From the NCBI GenBank assembly GCA_005778355.1, contig SXON01000059.1, positions 1 to 64,000 of the forward strand: 64,000 bases of DNA, in the 5' to 3' direction. The translations under genes and the position numbers were made by a program. This document shows, piece after piece, positions 16,426 through 62,600 of the stretch (positions within the stretch are counted from its first letter, which is position 1; every line of letters starts with the position of its first letter). Source of the stretch: Pseudomonadota bacterium. GTDB taxonomy: Bacteria > Myxococcota_A > UBA796 > SXON01. The notes below the pieces were generated by a model. It was given only the letters and a program-made list of their open reading frames with translations, did no database searches and was not told where the DNA came from.

Positions 16426-18183
16426 TCAGCGACGTGATGCTCCACGACGCCGCACGCCGATCAACCCGGCCACGACGCCCAGCAACCCCGGCGCCACGTG
16501 CCCGCCGTTGCAGGCGCCGCACTCCTCGGGGAGCGTCCCCGGCTCGTCGACGTCCTGTCCCTCGTCGGTATCGGGGTCGGCCGGGGTGCCGGAGTCCACG
16601 AGGCCCGAATCGACTGGATCCTCGTCGCCCACCTCGCCCTCGTCGCCCCCGGACCCGTCGTCGCCATCGGCAAGCCAACTCTCCACCAGCCCGATGGTGT
16701 CTTCCGCCGCGTAGCGCTCGCCGAAGCTGATCATCCATGCGTCGTCGTCGTCGGCCGCGCCGGCCTCGATGAGCAGCTCGCCGGTGATGGGCGAGGCGTA
16801 GAGCAAGTCCAGGTGCGACAGGTTCGCGATGTGGCTCTCGATCACGACCGCGCCGCGCGAGGTGAGCATGTTCTCGTCGTTGGCGCTGTCGAGGAACACC
16901 AGGCCGTCGGACTGCCCCGAGATCTCCCCGATCACGAGGTCGCCCGAGAGCACGCCCTGGAGCTCCTCCTCGGTGAGCTCCTCGGACATGATCCCCTCGC
17001 CGACCGCACTGGCGATGACATCGGCCCAGGTTTCCCGTTCTGCCTTGCCGAACTCGGCCCAGCTCTCGCCAAACTGCGTGGCCGCCCAGTCCTCGTAGCC
17101 GTTCGGCATCAACGGGTTCTCCCCGGCGAGCAGGAACAGCTCCACGGCGGGATCGACCCCGTTTTGCTGCAACGCGGCAAGCACACCACCCCCGGCGTCG
17201 ACGACACCGTCGATACCGTCGGAGTAGGTGTAGTAGCCGTAGCCCCCCTCGTAGGTGCTGTACCAGTCCTGCTGGTAGGCGTAAGGTCCGAGCCAAGTCA
17301 GTGAGCCCGGGAGCGGGTGATCCTGGCGCGCGTAGATCTGCCGGTGACCGGGGAAGAGGTCGCCCTCCTCGGCGTAGAAGTCCTGGGCGCGCAGATCCTC
17401 GGAAACCCAGCTCGTGCCCGTGCCGTAGGGGTAGTACTCTTCCCACGCCGAGGGAGAGAAGGTGCTCTCGGCGTCGAGCGAGAGGAAGTTGCCTGTCGAC
17501 CAGCGAAAGGCCGTGTCGATGCCCTTCAGCGGGGTGGCAATCAAGACCAGCCGTCGGATGTCGCCCTGGTAGGGGGTGCCGACGCGCTCGTAGGCGGCGC
17601 CGGTGCTGCCCTCGCCCCAGCCCGCGACGCCACCGTTCGAGGCGTAGATCGCGGCGGAGATGCCGCCCTTGCTGTGCGCCACGACGTCGACCTGGGCGGC
17701 GCCGGTGCGTTCCTTGATGCGCGCGATGGCGTCGGCGACCTGCTCCGCCTGCTGGAAGGCGTCGCCGTGCGGGTGCGCGAAGGTCATCGCGTAGACCGGC
17801 TTGCCGAGTAGATCCTCGTGCCATGCCATGGTGATGAAGCCGCGCGAGCCATTGTCGGCCGCGCCCGGGACGAAGAGCACCGGCGTTCCGCTCGCGATCG
17901 CGGCGCTCGGCCCCACGTGGAGGAGGAACTTCGAGGTGTGGGGCGTCTCCGACTGGAAACAGTCAGCGATGTAGGGTGCCCAGCTCGCGTCGCGGGGCCA
18001 GGCGGTCACGTCGTTGAACTCGCCCTCGCCGAACAGCGTCCGGTCGGGGTCTTCGTGCAGCTCGATGGCGCTCCACAGCCGGACGCTGCCCTCGAGGTCT
18101 TCCACCTCGGTGCCGGTGTACACCTCCGCCGGGGATGCTGGATCGAAGCCGGTGGTAGCCATCGCGAGGGGGATGAGGATCAT
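16426..18183 (-). CDS. Exported lipase-like alpha/beta hydrolase with MYXO-CTERM-like tail
   Basis: 585 residues. A short signal (MILIPLAMATTG) precedes a lipase-type fold: LFVPGAADNGSRG oxyanion region and VDVVAHSKGG with nucleophile Ser171 (A-H-S-x-G, as in several triacylglycerol lipases). A large aromatic-rich insert follows (YQQDWYSTYEGGYGYYTY), then a His region near SHIANLSHLDLLY. The C-terminus has an acidic linker, EECGACNGG, a helix and RRRGASRR. It probably cleaves lipid esters outside the cell. Last gene of a chain of overlapping genes that begins with PHA synthesis; its ATG overlaps the previous stop (ATGA). Confidence 0.8.
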   Translation of the reverse strand: MILIPLAMATTGFDPASPAEVYTGTEVEDLEGSVRLWSAIELHEDPDRTLFGEGEFNDVTAWPRDASWAPYIADCFQSETPHTSKFLLHVGPSAAIASGTPVLFVPGAADNGSRGFITMAWHEDLLGKPVYAMTFAHPHGDAFQQAEQVADAIARIKERTGAAQVDVVAHSKGGISAAIYASNGGVAGWGEGSTGAAYERVGTPYQGDIRRLVLIATPLKGIDTAFRWSTGNFLSLDAESTFSPSAWEEYYPYGTGTSWVSEDLRAQDFYAEEGDLFPGHRQIYARQDHPLPGSLTWLGPYAYQQDWYSTYEGGYGYYTYSDGIDGVVDAGGGVLAALQQNGVDPAVELFLLAGENPLMPNGYEDWAATQFGESWAEFGKAERETWADVIASAVGEGIMSEELTEEELQGVLSGDLVIGEISGQSDGLVFLDSANDENMLTSRGAVVIESHIANLSHLDLLYASPITGELLIEAGAADDDDAWMISFGERYAAEDTIGLVESWLADGDDGSGGDEGEVGDEDPVDSGLVDSGTPADPDTDEGQDVDEPGTLPEECGACNGGHVAPGLLGVVAGLIGVRRRGASRR

Positions 18184-19103
18184 GGCAGGAACTCCTCGAG
18201 CGCCGCGTTGAAGGCGCGAGGTGCGTCGTGGTGAACGGTGTGGCCCGCGCCCTCGATGAGGAGGAGTCGCGAGTGGGGGACGAGCTGGTGGGCGCGCTCG
18301 GCGATGGCCCGGGTGCGGCCGCCAGTGAAGATGGGGTTGGGGATCATGCGGTCGTCGCTGCCATACACGATCAACGTGGGAACCGCGATGTCTCGTGCGC
18401 GGGCACCGACGGGGTGGTCGAGCATCCCGGCGATGGAGCGCGACACGGCCACGCTCGTGCCGCCGAAGCGTGGGTTGAGCCCGAGCCGCACGCGCTCCTG
18501 GATCAGCCGCTCCACGCCGTCGTCGACCTCGTTGAACACCATGGTGACGAAGTTGGCGCGCACCTGCTCCTCGCTCGACTCCATGGCCCGAGACTCGGTC
18601 CAGAAGGCCTTCATGAAACTCGCGGCGCCCAGGTCGAAGGACTCGAAGCCGGCCGGCGCGGAGAGCGCGAGGCGCTCCACGCGCTCCGGGTGACGCAGCG
18701 CCAGCTCCATCGCCACCTGCCCACCCATCGAGTGACCCACGACCGTGGCCCGCTCCACGCCCACCGCAAACATCCAGTCCGCCACGACATCGGCGTACCA
18801 GGGCGGCGTGCAGGGCGCGTCGGGCCGACCGCTGGCGCCGTAGCCAGGCAAATCGAGCGCGAGCACGCGGTGGTCCTTTGCGAAATGCTCGAGTTGGTAC
18901 TCCCAGAAGCCAGTGTAAGACGACAGGCCATGGATGAACACGACGGGATCACCCTCGCCGCCGCTATCGACAAAGGCGATGTCGATGTCGTTGACCACCG
19001 TGTGTTGAACCGGGAGGGGCGCCCAGAGGTCGCCCGGCTCGATGGGGCCGAGGCCGGCGTAACGGGGCGCGCAGCCGAAGAGCGCGAGCATCGCAGGGAT
19101 CAT
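18180..19103 (-). CDS. Alpha/beta-hydrolase lipoprotein
   Basis: 307 residues from the ATG at 19103, which overlaps the barrel-protein stop (ATGA) and gives a lipobox MLALFGC (C11). The classic fold shows FIHGLSSYTGFW (oxyanion), VVGHSMGGQVA with nucleophile Ser125, the acid in YGSDDRMIP and the His in EGAGHTVHH. Likely an esterase or lipase attached to a membrane by a lipid anchor. Substrate unknown; operon context points to lipid or polyester cleavage in the periplasm. Confidence 0.85.
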   Translation of the reverse strand: MIPAMLALFGCAPRYAGLGPIEPGDLWAPLPVQHTVVNDIDIAFVDSGGEGDPVVFIHGLSSYTGFWEYQLEHFAKDHRVLALDLPGYGASGRPDAPCTPPWYADVVADWMFAVGVERATVVGHSMGGQVAMELALRHPERVERLALSAPAGFESFDLGAASFMKAFWTESRAMESSEEQVRANFVTMVFNEVDDGVERLIQERVRLGLNPRFGGTSVAVSRSIAGMLDHPVGARARDIAVPTLIVYGSDDRMIPNPIFTGGRTRAIAERAHQLVPHSRLLLIEGAGHTVHHDAPRAFNAALEEFLP

Positions 19104-20602
19104 CCGAACACCAGCCAGTCCAGGGAGAGGAGCATCGTCCACGGCGTTTGGGACAGGTCGGTACCCGCGACGCCGGCGCCAATGGCCGACACGTTGAGGA
19201 GCGGCAGCGGGCGACCGGACACGCGCCCATTGAACTCGGTGCCGAGCACGTTGGCCGAGGCGTCGCGGGCGTGGGCCACGCCCAGGGTCAGGCCGAGCCG
19301 GTTGGGCACCGCGTCGAAGCCGACACTCGACGACACCGCGAGGAGCCCGGCGCCTTTGCCCGACACGTCGGGGACCACCGAGATCGCGCGGTTGATGGCA
19401 CCGGGATCGGGGAAGAGCAGGTAGCTGCCATGCGTGGCGTGGACCGCGCCGACGATGCCCCAGCTGTTGGCCGTGAGGACGCCGGTGTAGGTGTCGTCGC
19501 CGTCCTTGTCGCCCGTGGCGTAGAGCGCCTCGATACGGGCCACGGATCCGTCGCCCGGCGCGTAGCGCCAGCGTCCCTCGACGTCGGCGAGGACACCGGA
19601 CACGCTGATGTCGCCATGGTCCGCCACGTAGATCTTGCCCACGTTGCCCACAATCACCCCGTGCACGCCCACCGGCCCCGCGTCGAGCGCGGCGTTGTAG
19701 CCCATGTCCGCCGCGATCCAGCCGATGTCGACGTCGACCTCGGGCGACAGCTCGTCGGGCGCCGTGCGGAAGTCGAGTCGCGGCCCTCCCTGCATCTCCG
19801 AGAGCGCAGAGGAGGGCCCAGAACCGAGCAGACCCGCGCTGCCACCGGCGCGATCACGCAGGAACCAGCCGTGAAGCCCCAGGCGCGTGGCGTGGGCGGG
19901 CGCCAACTGCAGGTCGGCGACCGCGAGCGACACGTCGTCGCCATCGGCGAAGGCTTGCTCGTAGAGGGTGAAGCCACCCACCCGGTAACGCAGGGTTTCC
20001 GCCGAGGGCGATCCCACCTTGCCGTACATCGCCACGCCGGCCGCCTCGGTGCCCCAGAACATGAGCCGCCCGCCGCTGCGCAGCAAGTCATCGAGGCGCG
20101 AGCGGGACGGGTCGTTCACCCCATCGCCCACGAACTGCAGGCCGACCACTAGGGTTTGGCCCTTCAAAAGCTCGAAGCGCCCCGCCAGCCGCCGCGTCTG
20201 CAAGTTCACCGAGTCCGCGCCAATCGCGGCGCCCGTGTTGCCGCCGGTCCCGTAGCTGCTGTCGCCGAAGGCGAAGTCCACCTCGAAGGCGGCGTCGAGT
20301 GCAGCGCGGCCATCGAGCAGGCTGGGCGCGTAGGTGAAGAAGGCACCGACCCGCTCCTCGGTGTAGGCCCCCGTGTCCTCGCCGGTGGTGGTGGAGTTAG
20401 TGCCGCCCAGCTCGCCAATCACCTGGCCGTTGACCAGTGGGTTGGTGGTGATCACGTCGGTGGTGACCGCCCGAGCCGAGAACGTGCCGAGGAAGCTCAA
20501 TCCTCCCTTGGCCTCCGGGGACGGTCGCACCTCGTCGGCGCGCGCCTCTGCGGGAAGGGCGGCGTCTTGGGCGAGCGCCAGAGCGGCGATAGAAACCAAC
20601 AT
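19100..20602 (-). CDS. Outer-membrane beta-barrel protein
   Basis: 500 residues with a signal peptide (MLVSIAALALAQDA). The rest alternates polar and hydrophobic residues in short strands separated by Gly/Asp-rich turns, without any enzyme motif. It ends in LLSLDWLVFG, close to the aromatic C-terminal signature of outer-membrane barrels. A porin or exporter-type barrel is inferred; no specific family recognised. The ATG overlaps the stop of the preceding lipoprotein gene (TAATG), so it is co-translated within the PHA-linked operon. Confidence 0.75.
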   Translation of the reverse strand: MLVSIAALALAQDAALPAEARADEVRPSPEAKGGLSFLGTFSARAVTTDVITTNPLVNGQVIGELGGTNSTTTGEDTGAYTEERVGAFFTYAPSLLDGRAALDAAFEVDFAFGDSSYGTGGNTGAAIGADSVNLQTRRLAGRFELLKGQTLVVGLQFVGDGVNDPSRSRLDDLLRSGGRLMFWGTEAAGVAMYGKVGSPSAETLRYRVGGFTLYEQAFADGDDVSLAVADLQLAPAHATRLGLHGWFLRDRAGGSAGLLGSGPSSALSEMQGGPRLDFRTAPDELSPEVDVDIGWIAADMGYNAALDAGPVGVHGVIVGNVGKIYVADHGDISVSGVLADVEGRWRYAPGDGSVARIEALYATGDKDGDDTYTGVLTANSWGIVGAVHATHGSYLLFPDPGAINRAISVVPDVSGKGAGLLAVSSSVGFDAVPNRLGLTLGVAHARDASANVLGTEFNGRVSGRPLPLLNVSAIGAGVAGTDLSQTPWTMLLSLDWLVFG

Positions 20603-21168
20603 TACTGCCGCCGATAGGTCTGGACGTTGGCGCCGGGCTCAAGCTGCGGCCCGGAGCTCGAACCGAAGCCCTCTTCTGGTGTTGGCGCCACGTAGCCGTA
20701 GTCTGGTTCGGTGATCACCACCTCGTAGCTTAGTTTATCGCCTTCGACCTCATAGATCCCGTGTGAGACCGCGCTCGACGGGCTGGTTTGCACCAGCTCG
20801 ATGTTCGCGGGGCGGGTGGAGGTGTCGGTGGTGTAGCTGCCCTTGAAGGTGGTGGACTGGCCGTCTGTGTCGGTGGCCACCACGATGTAGGTGCCGCCCG
20901 ATGTGAAGCCCGCGGTGATCCGGTCGAAGTAGGGCGCGAAGAGCTCGCTCAGGTCGTCGCCCTCGCTGAGCCAATCGCCCACCAGGGTGTCAGCGTCGGT
21001 GTCGCTATCGGAGTCCGCGTCGGTGTCCGTGTCGCTGTCGGCATCCGCGTCGGTATCGGTATCGGTATCGGTATCCGTGTCAGCTTCGTCCTGCAGCGCC
21101 GCGTTGACGTAGGTGCCGGGCGACTCCACGTCGTCGGGCAGGCAAGCAAGCAGGGCGATGAGGCTCAC
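20602..21168 (-). CDS. Lipocalin-like lipoprotein with Asp-Thr linker
   Basis: 188 residues from a GTG overlapping the acyl-CoA ligase stop (GTGA). MSLIALLACLPDD is a lipoprotein signal with Cys9. A run of Asp-Thr/Asp-Ala/Asp-Ser pairs follows, then a compact beta domain beginning LVGDWLSEG with GGTYIVVATDTDGQ, FKGSYTTDT and HGIYEVEGDKLSYEV. This spacing resembles lipocalin-like proteins. A lipid-binding or shuttle role next to the barrel protein is possible but inferred. Confidence 0.7.
   Translation of the reverse strand: MSLIALLACLPDDVESPGTYVNAALQDEADTDTDTDTDTDADADSDTDTDADSDSDTDADTLVGDWLSEGDDLSELFAPYFDRITAGFTSGGTYIVVATDTDGQSTTFKGSYTTDTSTRPANIELVQTSPSSAVSHGIYEVEGDKLSYEVVITEPDYGYVAPTPEEGFGSSSGPQLEPGANVQTYRRQ
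20988..21087 (-). repeat. Asp-Thr/Asp-Ser/Asp-Ala codon repeat
   Basis: Six-base repeats (GATACC, GACACG, GACTCC variants on the minus strand) encode the acidic linker after the lipidated Cys of the lipocalin-like protein. Confidence 0.75.
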
Positions 21169-22646
21169 CCGCTCTCGTTATGCTGCGATGCAACATCCCG
21201 CAAGGCGATTTCTTTCAGCGCGACCTTGTCCACCTTGCCCGAGGCCGTGGTCGGCAGCGTGGAGAGCACGGTGATATACCTTGGAACCTTGTACTTCGCG
21301 AGTCGCTCCGAGAGGTGTGCCCGCAGACTCGCGACGCTGATGCTTGCCCCGGGCAGCGGGGCGACGAAGGCGGCCCCCACCTCGCCCCAGCGGGGGTCGG
21401 GCACCCCGATCACCGCGCAGGCACTGATACATCCCGAGCCATGTATCACCGACTCGACCTCAGGTGGATACACGTTTTCTCCGCCTGAAATGTACATCTC
21501 CTTGATACGTCCGCACACGTAGAAGTAGCCGTCGACGTCGCGCTCCAGCACATCGCCGGTGCGGAACCACCCGTCGCCCATCGCATTCTGCGTTGCAGCA
21601 TCGTCGTCGAGATAACCGCCGCACACCGCCGGGCCCGAGAGCCACAACTCGCCCGGCTCGCCGGGCGCACACTCGGCGCCATCCGGCCGTACCAGTCGGG
21701 CGGCCACGTGCGCTGCCGGCATGCCCACGCTGCCCCACTTCGCCTCCACCATGCTCGGCGGCAGGGAGAAACAATTGGGGCCCACCTCGGTGAGGCCAAA
21801 GCCCTGTCGCAGCGGAATGTCGCGCTCGCGGTAGCGCAGCAAGAGCGGCATCGGCAAAGCCGCACCACCGACCAGCGCGTCGCGCACCGAGCCGAGGTCG
21901 GTGCTCTCGAAGGCGGGATGATCGGCCATCATCTGGAAGATGGTTGGCACGCCCATCAGGAGGGTCACCCGTTCCTCGGCGATGAGCGCGAGCGATTCGG
22001 CGGGCTCGAAGCCCCGGGCGAGCACCACCCGGCCACCGCGCCAGAAAAGGGGTGTGCTCAGGCAGTTCAGCCCCCCGGTGTGGAAGAGCGGCGTGAAGGT
22101 GAGCGTGCTGTCGCTCGCGACGAGGTCGCAGGCCAGCTGCGTGTTGACTGCGTTCCAGTGGAGCTGCTGGTGCGTGAGCAGCGCACCCTTGGGCCGACCG
22201 GTGCTGCCCGAGGTGTACATCAGCACCCAGGGTGCATCGAGCGCCGATCCGGGACCGGTGACCGGGTCGGAATCGGGGTCGTCGACCAGACCGACACCGG
22301 GAAGCCGCCCGGCCATCGAGGGGTCCACGAGCAAGAGCCGGGGACGCGAGTGCTCTACCTGCCAGCGAAGCTCGGGATCGGCCAGCCGCCAGTTCATCGG
22401 GAACAAGGTGGCGCCCAGCTCGGCGCAGGCAAAGAGTAGGAGGAAGGTCTCGGCCCGGTTCGGTGCGAGCACGGCCACGCGGTCGCCAGGGCCCACGCCC
22501 TCCGCGCGGAGTCGTCCCGCCCAGCGCAGGGCGTCACGCTGCATCGCAGCATATGTCCAGCGACGGTCGCTTGCTACGTCGTACAGGGCCTCCGCCTCGG
22601 GACGGAAACGGGCATGCACCTCGAGCCAGTTGCTGGTTGCCCTCAT
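21165..22646 (-). CDS. Acyl-CoA synthetase (AMP-forming ligase)
   Basis: 493 residues from the ATG at 22646, which overlaps the second phaC stop (ATGA). ANL-superfamily motifs are complete: MYTSGSTGRPKGALLTH (phosphate loop), GFGLTEVGPN, GDGWFRTGDV, and the C-terminal catalytic Lys in PTTASGKVDK. Such enzymes activate fatty or hydroxy acids to CoA thioesters. Placed directly after two PHA synthases, it could supply or recycle monomers (inference). An A/T-rich codon patch with two TGATACA-type words lies at about 21421-21510, and three TGCTGCGATGCA-type sites fall inside the coding region. Confidence 0.88.
   Translation of the reverse strand: MRATSNWLEVHARFRPEAEALYDVASDRRWTYAAMQRDALRWAGRLRAEGVGPGDRVAVLAPNRAETFLLLFACAELGATLFPMNWRLADPELRWQVEHSRPRLLLVDPSMAGRLPGVGLVDDPDSDPVTGPGSALDAPWVLMYTSGSTGRPKGALLTHQQLHWNAVNTQLACDLVASDSTLTFTPLFHTGGLNCLSTPLFWRGGRVVLARGFEPAESLALIAEERVTLLMGVPTIFQMMADHPAFESTDLGSVRDALVGGAALPMPLLLRYRERDIPLRQGFGLTEVGPNCFSLPPSMVEAKWGSVGMPAAHVAARLVRPDGAECAPGEPGELWLSGPAVCGGYLDDDAATQNAMGDGWFRTGDVLERDVDGYFYVCGRIKEMYISGGENVYPPEVESVIHGSGCISACAVIGVPDPRWGEVGAAFVAPLPGASISVASLRAHLSERLAKYKVPRYITVLSTLPTTASGKVDKVALKEIALRDVASQHNESG
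21181..21192. promoter_or_regulatory. PHA-locus motif TGCTGCGATGCA (in coding sequence)
   Basis: Exact copy of the motif found upstream of phasin, phaE and phaR, here in the last codons of the acyl-CoA ligase, 13 bp before the next gene start. Confidence 0.4.
21589..21600. promoter_or_regulatory. PHA-locus motif TGCGTTGCAGCA (in coding sequence)
   Basis: One mismatch to TGCATCGCAGCA after allowing the CG/TT variation at the centre; inside the acyl-CoA ligase gene. Confidence 0.3.
22540..22551. promoter_or_regulatory. PHA-locus motif TGCATCGCAGCA (in coding sequence)
   Basis: Exact copy, about 100 bp inside the acyl-CoA ligase gene. Confidence 0.4.
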
Positions 22647-23707
22647 GCCTCGACACCGCTCCAGAACTGGTCGAGCAGGGGGTAGAACTGCCGCGGCCCC
22701 TCCGTGCCCACGACCACGCCGATGTGACCCACGTCGAGGGTCGCGGCCCGCGCGCCGGGGATGGCCTCGGCCAGGGGCAGGGCCGCCGCCGGGGGCGTGA
22801 TGAAGTCCTTCTTGCAGGCGACCACCAGCGCGGGTGCCCGGATGTCTTGCACCACCGCCACGCGCCCGTGCACGATCCAGCGGCGGTGCAAGAGCGCGTC
22901 GCGCTGGTAGCCGTCGCGGATGAAGTCGCGCGCGAAGGCGCCTGGCAGCGGCACGTTCTCCTCGAGCCAGCGCTCGCGCACCAGCACCCGCGCGAGCTTC
23001 GCCGGCTCGTGGCTCGCTGCCTCGATGCCCAGGTATTTCGACACGTTTCCCACCGGGTCGAGCATCTGGAAGGCAGGCTTCATCGTCTCGACGGGCACAA
23101 GGCCCTCCGCGTCGAAGGCGGCGTCGACATCGAGCTGCCGGACGAAGTCCGCGAAGCGCCCCCCCGCCGAGAATCGCGCCGGCGCGTTGAGCGCCACCAG
23201 CGAGGCCACGCGCTCGGGGAAACGTGCCGCGAGCAAGGTCGCGATCGTGCCCCCCATGCAATAGCCCAGCAGGTGGGCACGCGGCGCGCGTGCATGCCGG
23301 GACGCCCGGTCGATACTGCGTCGCAGCATACCGACCACCTCGTCGAGCCCCTGGCCGCAGTCGGCGATCGTGGGGACACCCCAGTCCACCAGGTAGGTCG
23401 GGTAGCCCGCTGCCGACAGGGCCTCCACCAACGAACGACCTGGTTCGAGGTCGAGGATGAAGGCACGATTGATGAGCGAGGGCACCAGCACCACCGGCGC
23501 GTGTCGCACACGGCGCGGGGCGTAGTACCGGAGATCGACTCGCCCCTGGGAAAACACCACCTCCGACGCCGTGAGAGCCACCGGGGGGCGCGGCGCGGTG
23601 GCGAGGATCTGCATCCCCCGTCGGATCTTCGCCGCCGGACCGAGCCCGAGGGCGGCCAGGGCGGGGTCGAGCGGCCAGGCGGGGAGCGGGCTCGAGGCGC
23701 CGGTCAC
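22643..23707 (-). CDS. phaC: Class III-type PHA synthase PhaC (second copy)
   Basis: 354 residues from the GTG at 23707 that overlaps the first phaC stop (GTGA); this is the usual class III PhaC length. Lipase-like box GYCMGG with nucleophile Cys150, acid in CKKDFITPP, and His in DVGHIGVVVG, so the triad is complete. PHA synthase polymerises hydroxyacyl-CoA into storage polyester at granules, normally as PhaC-PhaE. Having two PhaC proteins side by side is unusual; they may form a mixed complex or differ in monomer choice. The upstream open frame is long, but only this start fits the operon. Confidence 0.88.
   Translation of the reverse strand: MTGASSPLPAWPLDPALAALGLGPAAKIRRGMQILATAPRPPVALTASEVVFSQGRVDLRYYAPRRVRHAPVVLVPSLINRAFILDLEPGRSLVEALSAAGYPTYLVDWGVPTIADCGQGLDEVVGMLRRSIDRASRHARAPRAHLLGYCMGGTIATLLAARFPERVASLVALNAPARFSAGGRFADFVRQLDVDAAFDAEGLVPVETMKPAFQMLDPVGNVSKYLGIEAASHEPAKLARVLVRERWLEENVPLPGAFARDFIRDGYQRDALLHRRWIVHGRVAVVQDIRAPALVVACKKDFITPPAAALPLAEAIPGARAATLDVGHIGVVVGTEGPRQFYPLLDQFWSGVEA
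23316..23327. promoter_or_regulatory. PHA-locus motif TGCGTCGCAGCA (in coding sequence)
   Basis: One mismatch to TGCATCGCAGCA, inside the second phaC gene. Confidence 0.3.
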
Positions 23708-24741
23708 CGGGCGGCCGCCGAGTCGCGCGCCGCCACCACCGGCAGCGCGTGCCACTCCATGATGCGTCGCGGCAAGGCCGCTCCGGCGCACACACCCACG
23801 TGGCCCCCCTTCAGCGTGCCCGTGGTCACCGCGCCGCCCCAGCGGCGGGACAGGGCGTGCGCCGCCTCGGGGGGCACGATGTGGTCGTCGCCCGCCGCCA
23901 CGGCGGTGGCGGGAACGGTGGCGCACGCGAGATCCACCGCCCGCCCGTCCATCAGCCATCCGCCCTCGATCAGCGCGTTATCGAAGTAACAACGCCGCAC
24001 GTATTCGCGGTAGGCCTCGCCGGGGAAGTCGACGCCGTCGTTGTTCCAGGCCTCGAGCGCCGTCCAGAGCTCCCGGAAGCCCTCGTCAGGGAAGCGGTCG
24101 ACGAGGCCCTTGTACTTGGCCGCGAGGCCCATCGGGCGCAGCCAGCGGAAGCTGTCCTGCATCAGCTCGCGGGGGAAGTTGCCGAAGCCATCGACGATCG
24201 CGTCGAGGGGGAAAGACTCCGGACGCGCCCAGCGTGACAGCCGCCCAGAGGCGTGGAAGTCGATCGGCGTGGCGAGGAAGAAGGCGGAGCGGGCTTGCGC
24301 ACGGTCGGTGCGGGCGAGGTGCGCCGCGAGGAACGTGCCGCCCACGCAGTAGCCGAGCACATTCATGGCGGGCACGCCAGCGTGCCGACAGGCGCGATCG
24401 AGGCAGCGCCCGATCACCCGGTCGACGTAGTGACACAGCGGCGTGTCGCGATCCTCGGGGCCGGCGCGTCCCCAGTCGAGGATGTACACCGGCACGCCCT
24501 GGGCGTTGAGCGTCTCGACAACGCTGCGCCCCGGGGCGAGGTCGAAGACGGTCCAGGTGTTGATGAGCGGCATGACACAGAAGAGCGGCGCCTGTGCCGA
24601 TGTGCCCTCGCGGGGCCGGAAGTAGCGCACTTTCGCCTTGCCGTCGCGATGGATCACCTCGTTCGGGCTCTGCCCGGTGCGCGCGCGAGACACCGGGTCC
24701 GTGCCGAGCCACAGCGCGGCCTGGGCGAGGTTGGCCACCAT
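23704..24741 (-). CDS. phaC: Class III-type PHA synthase PhaC (first copy)
   Basis: 345 residues, ATG directly after the phaE-like stop. Nucleophile Cys132 in LGYCVGGTF, acid in AGDDHIVPP, and His in LKGGHVGVCAG; also the conserved PLINTWTVFDLAPGRS and YILDWGRAGPED segments of PhaC. It should polymerise 3-hydroxyacyl-CoA with a PhaE-type partner on granules. It is clearly diverged from the adjacent second copy, so the duplication is old or the pair is heteromeric. Confidence 0.9.
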   Translation of the reverse strand: MVANLAQAALWLGTDPVSRARTGQSPNEVIHRDGKAKVRYFRPREGTSAQAPLFCVMPLINTWTVFDLAPGRSVVETLNAQGVPVYILDWGRAGPEDRDTPLCHYVDRVIGRCLDRACRHAGVPAMNVLGYCVGGTFLAAHLARTDRAQARSAFFLATPIDFHASGRLSRWARPESFPLDAIVDGFGNFPRELMQDSFRWLRPMGLAAKYKGLVDRFPDEGFRELWTALEAWNNDGVDFPGEAYREYVRRCYFDNALIEGGWLMDGRAVDLACATVPATAVAAGDDHIVPPEAAHALSRRWGGAVTTGTLKGGHVGVCAGAALPRRIMEWHALPVVAARDSAAAR

Positions 24742-25275
24742 CTACTTGCCCTTCCTGCGGGCGGCTGGTACGTTTGAAAACGCGCTCTCGACCTGGGCGC
24801 TCGAGGCAACCTCCGTGGCGCTGGGCGACGCCGGGACTGCCGAAGGCGAACCGCTGGTCGCCCGTGCCGCCGCCAAATCCCCACGGATCGCGGCGAGGGT
24901 GTCGCGGAGCTCCAGCCGGGCCTCGGCGGCCTCGATCCGCGCTTCCACGACCTCTTTCTCCATGCGGCCGAGGCGGTCTTTGAGCTCGAGCACGTGGTCC
25001 TCTTGCTGCAGGAGCCGCTCTTCAAGCAGGGCCGCCACGCGAGCAACGCGGACGAGATCGCCCCGCGTGGGCAGGTGCATCTTCTCCAGCGACTGGTCGA
25101 CCGACTTCTCGTACTGGCCGCGGGCGCGGGCAGCACCCTCGAGGTTCTTGCCCATCGCGCCGAGGAACGCGGGCGAGTCGAGCGTGGCATCCCACCACTG
25201 GGTCATCGCCTTCTCCCAGTGCTTGTACATCTCGTCGCCGAGCTTGGAGAAATCGGGTGCGGGTGCGCTGGCCAT
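24742..25275 (-). CDS. PhaE-like PHA synthase subunit, short form
   Basis: 177 residues from the ATG at 25275. The N-terminus is Trp-rich (HWEKAMTQWWDATLD). A PhaE-like MHLPTRGDLVRVARVAALLE stretch is followed by a long coiled coil (about residues 75-135) and a Pro/Ser/Ala-rich tail ending in RRKGK. PhaE activates class III PhaC; typical forms are near 350 residues, so this is a compact version, or a PhaM-like granule protein. It sits immediately before the first phaC. A TGCTGCGATGCA motif lies 32 bp upstream of the start. Confidence 0.75.
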   Translation of the reverse strand: MASAPAPDFSKLGDEMYKHWEKAMTQWWDATLDSPAFLGAMGKNLEGAARARGQYEKSVDQSLEKMHLPTRGDLVRVARVAALLEERLLQQEDHVLELKDRLGRMEKEVVEARIEAAEARLELRDTLAAIRGDLAAARATSGSPSAVPASPSATEVASSAQVESAFSNVPAARRKGK

Positions 25276-25306
25276 GGTCGTCCTCTGCTGCGGGGTGGAA
25301 CTATCT

Positions 25307-25318
25307 TGCTGCGATGCA
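25307..25318. promoter_or_regulatory. Candidate PhaR operator TGCTGCGATGCA upstream of phaE-like gene
   Basis: Intergenic copy of the PHA-locus motif, between phasin and the phaE-like gene. PhaR proteins are known to bind TGC/GCA-rich sites near phasin genes; this assignment is by context. Confidence 0.5.
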
Positions 25319-25400
25319 ATGTGGCGGTGGTCCCAGGCTGGGGACGTGCAGCGGGCGGCGCCTCCTGCCGGTCGGGCAGGGACGCCGCTCGCCGGGCGGC

Positions 25401-25652
25401 CTACTTGGCCTCGGCTTCGACCGGCTTCCAGGCCTCGACCATCGACTTGCCCACGCCCTGCGCGTAGCTCACCGAGGTGTCGTAGCTCGACTGGTAGAAA
25501 CCCATCGCCGCCTCGAACTGGGTGCGCGCGAGCTTGGCCTGCGCCTTCTGGAAGTCGAGCCACTGGGTCTGCGACTCGACCGCCTGCTGGCCGAGGGTGT
25601 GCACGTTCTTGCGGTAGCTGTTGACGAAGCTGTTGTTGAAGAGGCTGTCCAT
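25401..25652 (-). CDS. phaP: Phasin, PHA granule-associated protein
   Basis: 83 residues, small even for a phasin. It is amphipathic and helical, with phasin-like QTQWLDFQKAQAKLARTQFE and MGFYQSSYDTSVSYAQGVG. Phasins coat PHA granules and control their size. A good Shine-Dalgarno (AGGGAGA, about 5 nt spacing) precedes the ATG, in contrast to the leaderless genes nearby. Divergent from phaR across about 130 bp that hold an inverted pair of TGCTGCGATGCA-type motifs, as expected for PhaR control. Confidence 0.85.
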   Translation of the reverse strand: MDSLFNNSFVNSYRKNVHTLGQQAVESQTQWLDFQKAQAKLARTQFEAAMGFYQSSYDTSVSYAQGVGKSMVEAWKPVEAEAK

Positions 25653-25719
25653 CTTGGTCTCCCTGGTGGTTGTTGCCGGCGAAGGGGCTCGTCCCGGGCA
25701 CGGCATCATGTATGAACCA

Positions 25720-25757
25720 TGCTGCGGTGCGTCAAGCGCAAATTGTGCATCGCAGCA
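25720..25757. promoter_or_regulatory. Inverted pair of PhaR-type sites between phasin and phaR
   Basis: TGCTGCGGTGC (25720-25730) and GCATCGCAGCA (25747-25757) are inverted repeats matching at 10 of 11 positions, separated by 16 bp. They lie between the two divergent starts, overlapping the likely promoters. Repression of both phasin and phaR by PhaR is inferred. Confidence 0.6.
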
Positions 25758-25768
25758 TGAGCCGGGCG

Positions 25769-25781: not shown

Positions 25782-26312
25782 ATGCCGCACATCCGAAAGT
25801 ACGAGAACCGCCGCCTCTACGACACCGGCGCCTCGAAGTACGTCAACCTCGAGGAGATCGCCGAGATGGTGCGGCGCGGCGAGGAGGTGACCGTCGAGGA
25901 CAGCAAGACGGGTCGCGATCTTACCCAGGAGGTGCTCCTGCAGGTGGTCCTCACCTCGCCCACGGGGGCTGCGCTCGTGCCGGTCGGCTTGCTGCGTCGC
26001 CTCATCCGCGCCGCGGCGAACCCCGTGCTGTCACGCGGCATCGACCCGGCGCTCGCGCAGGGCCTCGACCTTTTCCATCGCCAACTCGAGGCGCTGGAAC
26101 GCGGGTTGCCGACCTTCCCGGGGTGGCCCCCCAACGCCGCGGGCCGCACCGGCTACCGCCACCCCGAGCCGGGTGCCGACCTGCAAGAGCCCCCTCCCTC
26201 ACCGCCCCCGCCGTACGACCCGGGACCGGGCCCCGACGACGCGGCCGACCCCGAGCTCGACGCGCTTCGCGCTCGCCTCGACGCGCTCGAGAAGCGCTTG
26301 CGGCGCGGTTGA
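25782..26312 (+). CDS. phaR: PHA synthesis regulator PhaR
   Basis: 176 residues. The N-terminus HIRKYENRRLYDTGASKYVN is the hallmark of the PHB/PHA accumulation regulator DNA-binding domain, followed by a PHB_acc-like region (EEVTVEDSKTGRDLTQEVLLQ). The C-terminal third is Pro-rich and ends in a short coiled coil (DALRARLDALEKRLRR). PhaR binds PHA granules and represses phasin genes until polymer accumulates. It is divergent from phasin across paired operator-like sites. The next gene starts at a TTG overlapping its stop. Confidence 0.92.
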   Translation: MPHIRKYENRRLYDTGASKYVNLEEIAEMVRRGEEVTVEDSKTGRDLTQEVLLQVVLTSPTGAALVPVGLLRRLIRAAANPVLSRGIDPALAQGLDLFHRQLEALERGLPTFPGWPPNAAGRTGYRHPEPGADLQEPPPSPPPPYDPGPGPDDAADPELDALRARLDALEKRLRRG

Positions 26313-59645: not shown

Positions 59646-62600
59646 GCGCGGCCCCCAGCCGCCGCCGCCCGGCGTGAGCACGCGGACGCGGTCCCCCGCC
59701 CGGAGTGACAGTGTCTCGCCCGTCCATCGGGTCCAGGTGCCGTCGCGGCGGGTCCACGCCTCGCCAGGAAGCCCCGGAGCACCACCGTCGAGACCCGGGG
59801 CTCCTCCAGGGCGCCAGGCCGCGAGCAGAGAGGCAGCGGCGGGGGCCAAGAGCTCGATCTCCCGCTCCAGCCCGTCGCCGCCCCGGTGGAGGCCCTCGCC
59901 CCCGCCCCCCCGTCGTAAGCGGAAGGCGCGCAGGCGCAGCGGGAGGCGGGCCTCCAACACCTCGGGGTCGGTGGCCCGGGTGTTGGTCATGTGCACCTGT
60001 CCCCCGCTGGCACCGGGCCCCCTGGGCGAGGCGCCGAGGCCCCCACCGAGGGTCTCGTAGTAGGCCCAGCCCTCGCCGCCGAGGCTCAGGTTGTTCATCG
60101 TCCCCTGCGAGGCGGCGCGCTGTCCGGTGGCGCGCAGGAGCAGATCGACCAGCCGTTGCGAGGTCTCCACGTTGCCGCCCACCACCGCCGCGCCCGGTGG
60201 CGGGTCGAGGATGGAGCCCGGCGGCACCACGATCTCCACCGCGCGGAGCAAACCCTCGTTCAGCGGCAAGTCGCGACCGAGCATGCATCGAAGCACGTAG
60301 ATCACCGCCGCGCGCACCACGCAGGCAGGGGCGTTGAGGTTCCCCGCGTGCGGACCGCCCGTGCCCGAGAAGTCGAAGCGCGCGCCGCTCACCCGGACCC
60401 GGAGCGGGATCCCGTCGATCTCGTCGGCGGCCTCGCCGTCGAGACCAGGCGCCACCTCCCGGGCGGCCCGGGTCACCGCGGCGAGCAGGCCTCCCATCCA
60501 GCGGCTCAGGAGGGCGGCGTCGTGCTCCGCGAGTCGGCGCGCCATGTGGGCGTTGCAGGCCACCTGCGCGCGCAGGTCGGCCTCCACCGTCAACGGGTCG
60601 CGACAGCCTATGAGCTTCGGGAGCCGAAAGTGGCCCGCGTCGACCAGAGGCAGTCGACGGAACACGAGGCCCTCGTCGGCCAGCGTCCGCGAGCGCGGAG
60701 GCATGGACCCGGGCGTGAGACCGCCCACGTCGACATGATGGGCGCGCGAGGCCACGAACCAGGGCCCCGCGCGGCTGACGACCGTGAGATCGGGCAGGTG
60801 GGAGCCCCCGGCCGCCGGGTCGTTGGTGAGCCACGCGCCGCCATGCGGGAGCTCGATCCCCGCCGCGAGCAGGTCACGCACGGTGGCACCCATCGCACCA
60901 AGATGCACCGGCACGTGGGGAGCGTTGGCGACCAGGGTCCCCGCCGCGTCGAAGATCGCGCAGGAGAAGTCGAGTCGCTCGCGGATGTTGACCGAGCGCG
61001 CGAGCCCACGAAGCACCTCGCCCGCCTCGGCGGCGATGCCCGAGAATCGGCTCGACCAGAGCGCGAGGGACAGGGCCTCGTCGTCGCCCTCCCTCCGCAC
61101 ACCCGGCCCCAGGTGATCGAGGACGAGCACCGGCCCTTCCCGGCGACCGCGCCAGCCCGCCGGCACCAGCAGCGAGGTACCCGGGAGCGCCAGCAGGCAT
61201 GGGCCCTCGACTTCCTCGGGGACACTCGCCGGCCAGTCCACGCAGTAGTCACTGGCCGTGGTCGATTCTCGGCCCCGCACGCCGATCTGCACCACCTCGA
61301 TGGGAAGTTCGGGGCGACTGAACCCAAAACGAAGCTGGTGCTCAGTTTCAAACGCCTGGGCCGCCTCGGTCTCCGTGCTCCCGGCGACTCTGAGCGCCGA
61401 GTCCGTTCCCGCGTAGCGTAGCTCCAGCCACCGTTGCTGTTCATGAAAATGATGGAGCTGCGCTGATAGTTCGTCCCACGACGCCATCACGAGGGGCCAC
61501 GCCGTGCGCAGCTCCCGCCACACGGGTCGCGACCGTTCCTCCTCGGCACGGGCAAAACGTTGTCCGAAGGCGCTCATCACCGAGGCCAGGGCGTGCACCG
61601 CCACCCGTCGCAGCCCGAGCTTCTCAGCCACGGCACAGGCGTGCTGGCCAGCCGCGCCGCCGTAGGCCACCAGCACCGCGCCGTCGAGGTCGGCCCCGCG
61701 CGCGAGGGCGAGACGACGCACCGCCGCCGCCATGCTCTCCCTCGCGATCTCCACGAAGGCCCCGGCCGGACCGGGGAGAGAAATCCTTGATACATCGAGC
61801 GGTGGCTCAAGTGTGTCAGTCAGCAAAAGACCAAGCTTTATAGCCGCATCTGTCAGCGTGGGTGGACCGCCCTTGCCGAAGGCCTGGGGGCCCGGGTGGG
61901 CGCCCGCCGAGGCGGGACCGACGGTGTAGCGCACCCCGTCGTGACCGAGGATGGAGCCACCACCCGCCGCGATGGTCTCGACGTCAAGCGCCGGTCGACG
62001 CACTCTACGCCCGGCCACCACCGACTCCCCGGCCCGGTACCGGAGTGGCCCAGGCTCCACGAGGCACACGTCGGTCGATGTGCCACCCATGTCGAGGCCG
62101 ACGGCGAGCCGGGCACCCACGCGCTCCGCCACGTGCCGCACCGCGAGCACACCACCCGCGGGCCCGCTGAGCACCGCGTCGGGGGCGCGCAGTTCATCCG
62201 CAACGCAGAGGCTCGCGTCGGAACGGATCGCTTGCGCGTCGCGCGGGATCTGGTCGTGCACGAGGGCGGCTTCGAGCACCGGGCCGAGCGCCGCGTCGAG
62301 CAGGGTCGTCTCCATGCGCCCGACGAGGCCCAGCTCGGGCACCCGCTCATGGCTCAGGACGGCACGCAGTCCCGCGGGCAAGGCCGCGCCGAGGGCACGC
62401 TCGTGCGCCGGGTTGAGCGGCGAGTTGTGCAAGACCACGGCCACCGCGTCGACGTCGTCGAGAAACAGTTCTGGAAGATCGAGCGGTTCGATCTCCCTTC
62501 CCTGGTTGTCGATCCGTCCCCTCACCTCCACGACCCTGAGCCCGGGCCAACTGGGCCTCCGCGCGTCGGCGTCGAAGAGCTCGGGACGTGTCATGTCGCC

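Follow-up and report, generated by a model that had tools for sequence, protein, structure and literature searches.

PhaR-type palindromes inside PHA synthase and phaR genes appear to be held in place by synonymous codon choice

The palindromic repeats of a PHA gene cluster in the window (the whole stretch of DNA that we analysed, 64,000 nucleotides) appear to be true PhaR operators, and would most likely serve as lac-like auxiliary operators or as roadblocks along the operon. The repeats had been pointed out in an earlier note made from the sequence alone; that observation is upheld, and it is stronger than first described. What is new is codon-level conservation inside the synthase and phaR genes: at one position in phaC2 and one in phaR, the sites appear to be held in the coding sequence via synonymous codon choice. 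A PhaR site within a phasin ORF and the auxiliary-operator model have already been published, and a literature search, mainly among papers outside subscription, returned none that treats conservation of in-gene PhaR sites at the level of codons.

The presumed repressor gene, phaR (25782..26312, + strand), encodes an N-terminal PHB_acc_N domain, a Pro-rich linker and, judged by eye, a short C-terminal coil. The protein matches PF07879 (E 2.7e-24; 85.5 bits against a cut-off of 25) and scores 80.8 bits against the TIGR01848 equivalog, under the cut-off of 109.45; we read it as a divergent PhaR, placed by its PF07879 domain and its neighbourhood. A coil-like C-terminal stretch is seen by eye in the PhaR of most relatives too, which is at most suggestive as regards bridging. 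Divergently from phaR, which they adjoin, run a phasin-like gene (25401..25652, an ORF named by its place), a gene for a phaE-like synthase subunit (24742..25275; TIGR01834, E 9.5e-4, below cut-off), and phaC1 (23704..24741) and phaC2 (22643..23707), which encode class III-like PHA synthases (TIGR01836, E 3e-65 and 2.6e-56, both below cut-off). The phasin-like protein gave no family match, and a relative of it (32% identical) was found in G007 only. These genes are followed on the same - strand by an acyl-CoA ligase gene (21165..22646; PF00501, E 1.8e-80) and, at 16426..21168, by genes for a lipoprotein-like protein, a 500-aa protein, an alpha/beta hydrolase and a lipase-like protein. The last four are kept with the cluster in relatives, being present in 25, 26, 26 and 26 genomes respectively, own genome included (one of the 26 alpha/beta hydrolases being a 27% hit in G038). 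Judged by their spacing, the cluster genes probably form one operon. Many of 20 relatives' loci have a similar phaR neighbourhood; it is absent in L084, L086, L087 and L091, and in L079 owing to a contig end.

The PhaR-type site is a 17-bp palindrome, roughly WTGYTGCRNYGCARCAW, that fits published PhaR sites. The 12-mer by which the repeat was first described is ruled out as the unit, being an off-centre cut of the 17-bp dyad centred on TGC-RNY-GCA. In the accessible text of the R. eutropha account, the PhaR consensus YTKNTGCRNYGCANMAR has the core TGC-RNY-GCA, identical to the core here (PMC12849132), and the motif here is compatible with the S. meliloti consensus WNWD2NYGCRNYGCRNH2WNW, as given in the accessible text of PMC12542648. 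We built a weight matrix from sequence upstream of phaR in 24 relatives, which supplied 44 core matches; there were 46 in all, weak ones retained, and the 2 of this genome were excluded. Ranks 1-9 of the matrix in the window are nine pha-cluster sites. All nine contain TGC-RNY-GCR, with 6 ending in GCA and 3 in GCG; sites 22536 and 25306 have one poor arm each, and the arms of the other cluster sites are conserved.

All seven copies of the 12-mer listed in the earlier note were found. Four are exact, at 21181 (+), 22540 (-), 25307 (+) and 25746 (-); one, at 23317 (-), corrected from 23316, has one mismatch, and those at 21589 and 25720 have two. As stated there, four of them (21181, 21589, 22540 and 23317) lie inside genes. 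Loose 12-mer matches taken alone are weak evidence, because the window holds 13 that differ from the 12-mer at two places at most, where 100 shuffles gave 6.2 +/- 2.4 and one of them reached 13. One more match with a single mismatch, at 60284, is a poor palindrome with a matrix score of 5.2. The draft genome (6,604,529 bases, 85% complete) contains four exact 12-mer matches, all within a 4.6-kb span of the pha cluster. With up to one mismatch there are 26 matches, of which 7 score at least 16.9 by the 17-bp matrix and the other 19 at most 16.2. Five of the 7 are in the cluster, and two form an operator pair at C207:18435-18474, between a gene for an MFS transporter and a divergent one for an M20 dipeptidase. 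An isolated match at C215:1084 (score 19.9), within what by eye is a cinA-like gene beside a recA-like gene, is taken as chance. Enrichment only at PHA genes, which the earlier note would have counted as support, is nearly what we see genome-wide, the C207 pair and the C215 match being exceptions. These genome-wide counts come from pattern searches, which do not recover every matrix hit (one pattern passes over 22536 and 25306), and their reversed-pattern control is imperfect, CpG/GpC content being altered by reversal. Genome-wide counts and matrix together rule out chance as the origin of the repeats.

The motif, which fits published PhaR sites, flanks the phasin, phaE and phaR genes, as first described, and across the genome it is concentrated at pha genes. 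The predicted main operator (25719..25735, - strand; score 19.7) reads ATGCTGCGGTGCGTCAA on the + strand and TTGACGCACCGCAGCAT on the - strand, where it includes the -35 box predicted for the phasin promoter. This putative sigma70-type promoter, read from sequence at 25707..25735 (-), consists of TTGACG and TACATG separated by 17 bp, and the operator at 25719-25735 overlaps it as a PhaR operator would. The second operator of the pair (25742..25758, + strand; score 18.6) is upstream of phaR, 23 bp from the first, and many relatives have pairs with similar spacing. The form TTG(A/C)CGC-RNY-GCA(G/A)C occurs upstream of phaR in 23/32 genomes, own included; among those 23, a TA stands in 19 where the -10 box would be, at a distance of 17 bp, and TAnnnT in 14. 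Between the phasin and phaE genes is a further PhaR-type site (25306..25322, + strand; score 16.9), with an exact 12-mer and a poor right arm.

Six in-gene sites score at least 15 in this genome. One lies in phaC1, close to its 3' end (23759..23775; score 19.4) and ~50 bp before phaC2, and no match of at least 13 was found at the equivalent position in other phaC1 genes. In phaC2, the site at 23313..23329 (18.9) covers codons for MLRRSI, a position conserved across the order. Three sites fall in the ligase gene. The one near its 5' end (22536..22552; 18.6, left arm imperfect) has counterparts scoring 16.4 in G006, 21.9 in G036 and 13.7 in G012, while in G007 and G009 there is a shift of 5 nt; the position is not significant when each genus is represented by one genome (P 0.057). 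The next (21585..21601; 21.0) occupies a position unique to this genome among 27, as does the window's best site, at the 3' end of the gene (21180..21196; 22.4), which is about a dozen bases before the start of the lipoprotein-like gene. The sixth, in the cluster's last gene (17164..17180; 21.2), is at a position unique among 26. Four of the six (23759, 21585, 21180 and 17164) are not position-conserved. A weak site inside phaR (25989..26005; 14.9), over codons for LLRRLI, stands at the conserved in-phaR position of the relatives. The earlier note saw no copies elsewhere in the window, and in this it missed 23759, 17164 and the weak site at 25989. The in-gene sites other than the phaC2 and phaR positions are mostly lineage-specific.

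We found that the in-gene sites, taken together, are more numerous than one would expect from protein and codon usage, in keeping with the suggestion that they are extra PhaR sites. In nine cluster genes of the relatives, 64 in-gene sites score at least 15, where synonymous shuffles give 8.3 +/- 2.5; the corresponding figures for this genome alone are 6 and 0.43. These shuffle counts leave out the 5' margin, as many as 15 codons long, that precedes gene starts; the ligase and hydrolase hits of G038 (26-27% identical) were excluded before counting, as were phaC2 of G037 and phaR of G040, both of which do not have the tested columns. Genes flanking the clusters are also above the synonymous null, but their sites are sparse: 205 kb contain 7, against 1.6. 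The phaC2 position carries a site of at least 15 in 18/30 genomes, own included, where synonymous codons would give 1.27 (P ~7e-22; one genome per genus, P <=3.4e-12), and the in-phaR position in 22/31 against 3.86 (one genome per genus, P <=1.8e-8). Both were picked as the top of a position scan in which z had an sd of 1.44, not 1; the phaC2 position has the top z among the 9056 positions scanned. The third-ranked position, at the start of the hydrolase gene, has a mean score far below zero and was set aside as a start-of-gene artefact, and a ligase position at residue 200 (z 6.1) was rejected as a partial match whose peptide cannot allow 15.

Structural-gene sites occur in the cluster of 24/31 genomes with phaC2, own included. 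The three members of genus g2 (G011, G016 and G020) have no phaC2 site, and all three have a site in phaC1. Among 25 genomes whose phaE, phaC2 and ligase genes are all available, 6 (G004, G024, G025, G034, G037 and G039) have no structural-gene site of at least 15, and therefore an in-gene site is not essential. G002 is the sole genome without a detected PhaR among the 31 with phaC2; its contig ends ~0.9 kb past an operator. Outgroup phaC loci (L147-L172, minus L154, which is the contig of G037) gave few hits of at least 16, with only that of L170 within the matched phaC stretch; PhaR specificity may differ in these loci. A comparison by hand of how far the in-phaR site lies from the promoter pair gave no clear pattern of helical phasing.

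We judge it somewhat probable that these are PhaR operators whose in-gene members serve the promoter pair as auxiliary operators, much as lac O2, an auxiliary repressor operator inside lacZ, does for its own promoter region. The primary switch would be the operator pair between the phasin and phaR genes, which lies over and beside the -35 box of the phasin promoter. Free PhaR would block the promoter, and growing PHA granules would draw it off, as is reported for PhaR elsewhere. PhaR bound at the in-gene sites could raise the local repressor concentration or bridge to the promoter pair, and might also block elongating polymerase there; with no PHA present, the long operon and phaR would be kept shut. 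Binding by PhaR, bridging and a regulatory effect are what we infer from the sites themselves. As with lac O2, secondary repressor sites are found inside structural genes of the putative operon, six of them here; the differences are that several sites are present, that the spacings are larger, and that bridging by PhaR is a supposition.

Could the in-gene sites simply be a by-product of protein sequence and codon usage, in which the preferred codons for L-[RHQ]-R-[SIV]-I yield a motif-like sequence? Similar peptides do underlie both conserved sites (e.g. LLRRII in PhaR and LLHRSI in PhaC2), preferred codons approach the motif, and at the remaining L[RHQ]R places of the cluster genes YTG..CGC is likewise elevated (49/96). 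The synonymous null rejects this reading, by gene shuffles and by the exact position null, and we find it hardly credible. YTG..CGC is used at 19/21 of the L[RHQ]R codons of the phaC2 site and 29/33 of those of the phaR site, against 31/106 in flanking genes (0.26 by independence), and both sites differ even from the stricter control within the cluster genes (Fisher P 6e-4 for phaC2 and 1e-4 for phaR). At the phaC2 site, middle codons ending in A/T are in excess (15/30 vs 4.5 expected), unlike at the in-phaR position, where there is no excess of these rare codons, and serines after L[RHQ]R are AGY in 17/17, against 5/9 in flanking genes. Permuted matrices reached the real excess in 0/200 cases, a test of low power (mean 0.76 hits in coding DNA). 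That the sites are transcriptionally inert, like most intragenic PhoB sites of E. coli, has that precedent (accessible text of PMC10294691) and the four of six sites specific to this genome in its favour. It is nevertheless very unlikely: the PhoB sites are described there as not conserved, whereas conservation of the phaC2 and phaR positions goes beyond what synonymous codons would give, and this genome alone exceeds its expected number of sites.

The earlier note proposed internal promoters as one explanation of the copies in phaC2 and the ligase gene, and extra intergenic operator pairs downstream of phaC2 in G048 and G058 would agree with PhaR-controlled promoters there. This was not borne out: a sigma70-like signature (score at least 9) accompanies 46/70 intergenic sites but 1/73 in-gene sites, no commoner than in random in-gene windows (19/753), and internal promoters, of the sigma70 type that this comparison covers, seem highly unlikely. 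The note also held that promoter control could not explain the in-gene copies, which goes too far, as an in-ORF site can serve a promoter as an auxiliary operator, in the way proposed for R. eutropha phaP1/phaP3 (accessible text of PMC12849132). Roadblocks, at which in-gene PhaR stops elongating RNA polymerase and gives a graded downstream shut-off with no promoter contact, are a tentative possibility; they would suit the frequency of structural-gene sites and the rarity of promoter signatures at in-gene sites. The conserved in-phaR site, on the other hand, is on the opposite side of the promoter pair, and sequence cannot tell roadblocks from auxiliary operators. It is rather doubtful that the in-gene sites act as a reservoir or tether, holding PhaR, and PHA granules via PhaR, to set a release threshold or anchor granules. 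The sites are position-tolerant within the cluster, and the strict motif occurs at 13-28 places in each of four relatives (G049 13, G025 20, G034 24, G013 28), most examined ones inside other genes; these dispersed copies, however, are motif matches at which PhaR binding is putative, the sites of this genome are almost confined to the pha locus, and for a reservoir there would be no need to conserve the position of a codon. We give little credence to the more specific idea that in-coding palindromes are chromosome anchors for PHA granules, gathered in the pha operon in most species and, in some, scattered chromosome-wide within unrelated genes. If true, PhaR, which binds DNA as well as PHA, would link the birth or segregation of granules to the chromosome, with codon choice shaped accordingly.

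The auxiliary-operator reading has its closest published counterpart in R. eutropha, where a PhaR site within the phaP3 ORF was reported earlier, one in phaP1 is predicted, and a lac-like auxiliary-operator model, with the comparison to lac, has been proposed (accessible text of PMC12849132). That system shares with ours the TGC-RNY-GCA core palindrome, sites beside the phasin -35 box and an in-ORF site. There the ORF site is in a phasin gene near its promoter, whereas here the genes that carry sites are those for synthases, ligase and PhaR, at distances of as much as kilobases; and two positions here show codon-level conservation across an order, a matter on which the accessible text of PMC12849132 is silent for its in-ORF sites. 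S. meliloti PhaR (AniA) is alike in its YGCRNYGCR core, its AT-rich ends and the two copies flanking the phasin -35; its motif search, as described in the accessible text, covered upstream regions and hence not in-gene sites (PMC12542648). E. coli PhoB likewise has many sites within genes, which the accessible text of PMC10294691 reports as inert and unconserved, in contrast to the conserved phaC2 and phaR positions here.

Intragenic regulator sites are often dismissed as noise, and the PhaR motif searches of three published papers, in their accessible text, looked upstream of genes or near phasin starts (among them PMC12849132 and PMC12542648). Here a coding stretch of a PHA synthase appears to be held to a repressor motif across an order of uncultured bacteria, and the role of intragenic operators would therefore be testable by synonymous recoding alone. 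If in-gene operators matter, regulatory sites would be lost unnoticed whenever phaC or phaR is recoded for biotechnology.

The window's phaR gene (25782-26312, + strand) encodes a PF07879 domain (E 2.7e-24) but falls below the TIGR01848 cut-off, and we therefore regard its product as a divergent PhaR. The N-terminal domain is the sole Pfam match; it is followed by a Pro/Ala-rich linker and, at the C-terminus, a short coil-like stretch (DALRARLDALEKRL), which by eye is similar in most relatives. Divergent from phaR, on the - strand at 16426-25652, are genes for phasin-like and phaE-like proteins, phaC1, phaC2, an acyl-CoA ligase, a lipoprotein-like protein, a 500-aa protein, an alpha/beta hydrolase and a lipase-like protein, with almost no gaps except for the phasin-phaE interval. 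The lipoprotein-like and 500-aa proteins (19100-21168) are kept in the PHA cluster in 25 and 26 genomes, respectively; neither has a Pfam match, and the 500-aa protein has none in NCBIfam either. The product of the last gene (16426-18162), lipase-like, weakly resembles the PHA depolymerase PhaZ7 (NCBIfam E 2.9e-5, 23 bits against a cut-off of 450).

Published PhaR sites are YTKNTGCRNYGCANMAR for R. eutropha (PMC12849132), WNWD2NYGCRNYGCRNH2WNW for S. meliloti (PMC12542648) and NGCN(3)GC[GA] for Bradyrhizobium (PMC10888616). An earlier note had listed copies of a PhaR-like 12-mer here, and all were recovered: exact at 21181, 22540, 25307 and 25746, and near at 23317, 21589 and 25720. A count across the window's own draft genome (G000; 6.60 Mb, 252 contigs, 85% complete) found exact copies at those four places alone. 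Once flanking bases are included, the similarity extends beyond the 12-mer: the common sequence is roughly W-TGC-TGC-RNY-GCA-nCA-W, a palindrome of 17 bp with RNY at its center. Three in-gene copies (22540, 23317 and 21589) run on as GCAG(C/T/A)(G/A)T, and are thus better palindromes than the 12-mer count implies.

For a palindromic matrix we collected all TGC-RNY-GCR cores lying no more than 170 bp upstream of phaR. The 32 upstream regions yielded 46 core matches in 25 genomes; the two from G000 were excluded, leaving a training set of 44 matches from 24 relatives, with no further culling. The nine best matches in the window (21180, 17164, 21585, 25719, 23759, 23313, 25742, 22536 and 25306; scores 22.4 to 16.9) all fall in the pha cluster, followed by 37666 (15.4) and then 25989, inside phaR (14.9). 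Genome-wide, the pattern WTNNYGCRNYGCRNNAW occurs at 25 places, 7 of them in the cluster. Outside it, two places on other contigs of the same genome score 20.5 (C207:18435) and 19.9 (C215:1084), and the remaining 16 score at most 15.9.

At the promoter, 23 of 32 genomes (one region is incomplete) have a phasin-side operator of the form TTGACGC or TTGCCGC followed by RNY-GCA-GC or -AC. The bases 17 bp past its first six are TA in 19 of these 23, and TAnnnT in 14. This operator encloses the predicted -35 box and half of the spacer, an arrangement consistent with steric repression. On its phaR side, ~20-25 bp away, there is often a second operator.

A PhaR-type operator pair of the same form is found at C207:18435-18474 (fetched loci L021 and L267), in the interval between an MFS transporter gene and a divergently oriented M20 dipeptidase gene. 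A survey for the M20 gene matched 48 genomes, from which 30 loci were fetched and 22 scanned. Upstream matches of at least 12 were found in five of the 22 (G000, G010, G008, G006 and G009), all of the window's genus, and in none of five other scanned genomes of that genus. The G008 site looks decayed, and neither PhaR nor phaC2 was seen in the G008 or G010 drafts.

To assess the in-gene sites, counted at scores of 15 or more, we compiled orthologues of the nine cluster genes from 25 to 32 genomes per gene, G000 included (34 genomes overall). The relatives' cluster coding DNA (239 kb) holds 64 such sites, against 8.3 +/- 2.5 after within-gene synonymous codon shuffling; under the same null, G000 has 6 against 0.43, and flanking genes (205 kb) have 7 against 1.6. 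Some of the flanking-gene matches, in small groups near phaR, may be genuine sites. By gene, the excess lies in phaC2, phaR, the ligase gene, phaC1 and phaE; in this orthologue set no site was found in the lipoprotein-like or hydrolase genes, and very few in the 500-aa and lipase-like genes.

Two positions stood out in a codon-aligned scan of 9056 positions: phaC2 residue 127 (window 23313; z 8.95), followed by phaR residue 70 (window 25989; z 8.81). By exact enumeration of synonymous codings, the phaC2 position reaches 15 in 18 of 30 genomes, G000 included, against 1.27 expected, and the phaR position in 22 of 31 against 3.86. When each genus is represented by a single genome, P is at most 3.4e-12 for the phaC2 position and 1.8e-8 for the phaR position. 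The peptide allows a score of 15 in 22 phaC2 genes, 18 of which have the site. The variable residue is R, H or Q, which have the C-A/G-N codons that the motif requires, in 23 of 30 genes (site in 18 of 23); the other seven (P, D, S or L) all score below 15. Where L[RHQ]R is encoded, the motif-compatible YTG..CGC is used in 19/21 cases at the phaC2 site and 29/33 at the phaR site, compared with 31/106 in flanking genes (independence predicts 0.26) and 49/96 elsewhere in cluster genes. All three genomes of genus g2 lack the phaC2 site and have a phaC1 site. At least one structural gene of the cluster carries an in-gene site in 24 of the 31 genomes with phaC2, and 23 of 32 phaR genes contain one. 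From these codon-level patterns we infer that the in-gene sites, as a set, are under selection.

Other sites show little positional conservation. The ligase site (22536) scores at least 15 at the equal position only in G006 and G036 (P 0.057 with one genome per genus); G012 scores 13.7 there, and in G007 and G009 the site is displaced by 5 nt. Those at 23759, 21585, 21180 and 17164 are found at those positions in G000 alone, and G000's own in-phaR site is weak. A structural in-gene site is absent from 6 of the 25 genomes with phaE, phaC2 and the ligase gene in hand.

A strict PhaR-like palindrome is dispersed through four of 63 genomes (G013, 28 distinct places; G034, 24; G025, 20; G049, 13), a few being at the pha locus; the other 59 have at most 8 per strand. 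These are candidate PhaR sites. In the fetched loci (L194-L226, L234-L266), 57 of 73 sites scoring at least 19 fall in the best-scoring ORF of a rough gene model, and nine G034 loci have an aligned G025 counterpart with a site no more than 40 bp from the mapped position. By eye, the ORFs are of unrelated kinds, such as a kinase, alanine racemase, SbcC and EPSP synthase. Several contigs of the lineage (L123-L125, L142, L144) bear titles naming, for example, Klebsiella pneumoniae or Bifidobacterium breve, and are evidently mislabelled metagenome bins.

How might the in-gene sites act? The suggestion that they are internal promoters is disfavoured, at least for the sigma70-like type, since a sigma70-like signature (score 9 or more) accompanies 46 of 70 intergenic sites but only 1 of 73 in-gene sites; random in-gene windows carry it in 19 of 753 cases. 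We favour the reading that they would serve as auxiliary PhaR operators, because the two conserved positions flank the promoter pair (25719/25742) on opposite sides, at ~270 bp (phaR) and ~2.4 kb (phaC2), and the same model has been proposed for R. eutropha. There, sites for PhaR within the ORFs of phaP3 and phaP1 are likened to lac in an auxiliary-operator model (PMC12849132). Both systems have sites within ORFs, whereas those of the window lie deep in several genes. Two alternatives are left: a reservoir or tether for PhaR, and roadblocks to transcription, which sequence alone cannot tell apart from auxiliary operators.

Altogether, the observation is real, with an ordinary promoter part and an unusual gene-body part. 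PhaR operators were already known, one of them within an ORF; new against the literature searched are the presence of several sites deep within genes and the conservation, at codon level, of positions in phaR and a synthase gene.
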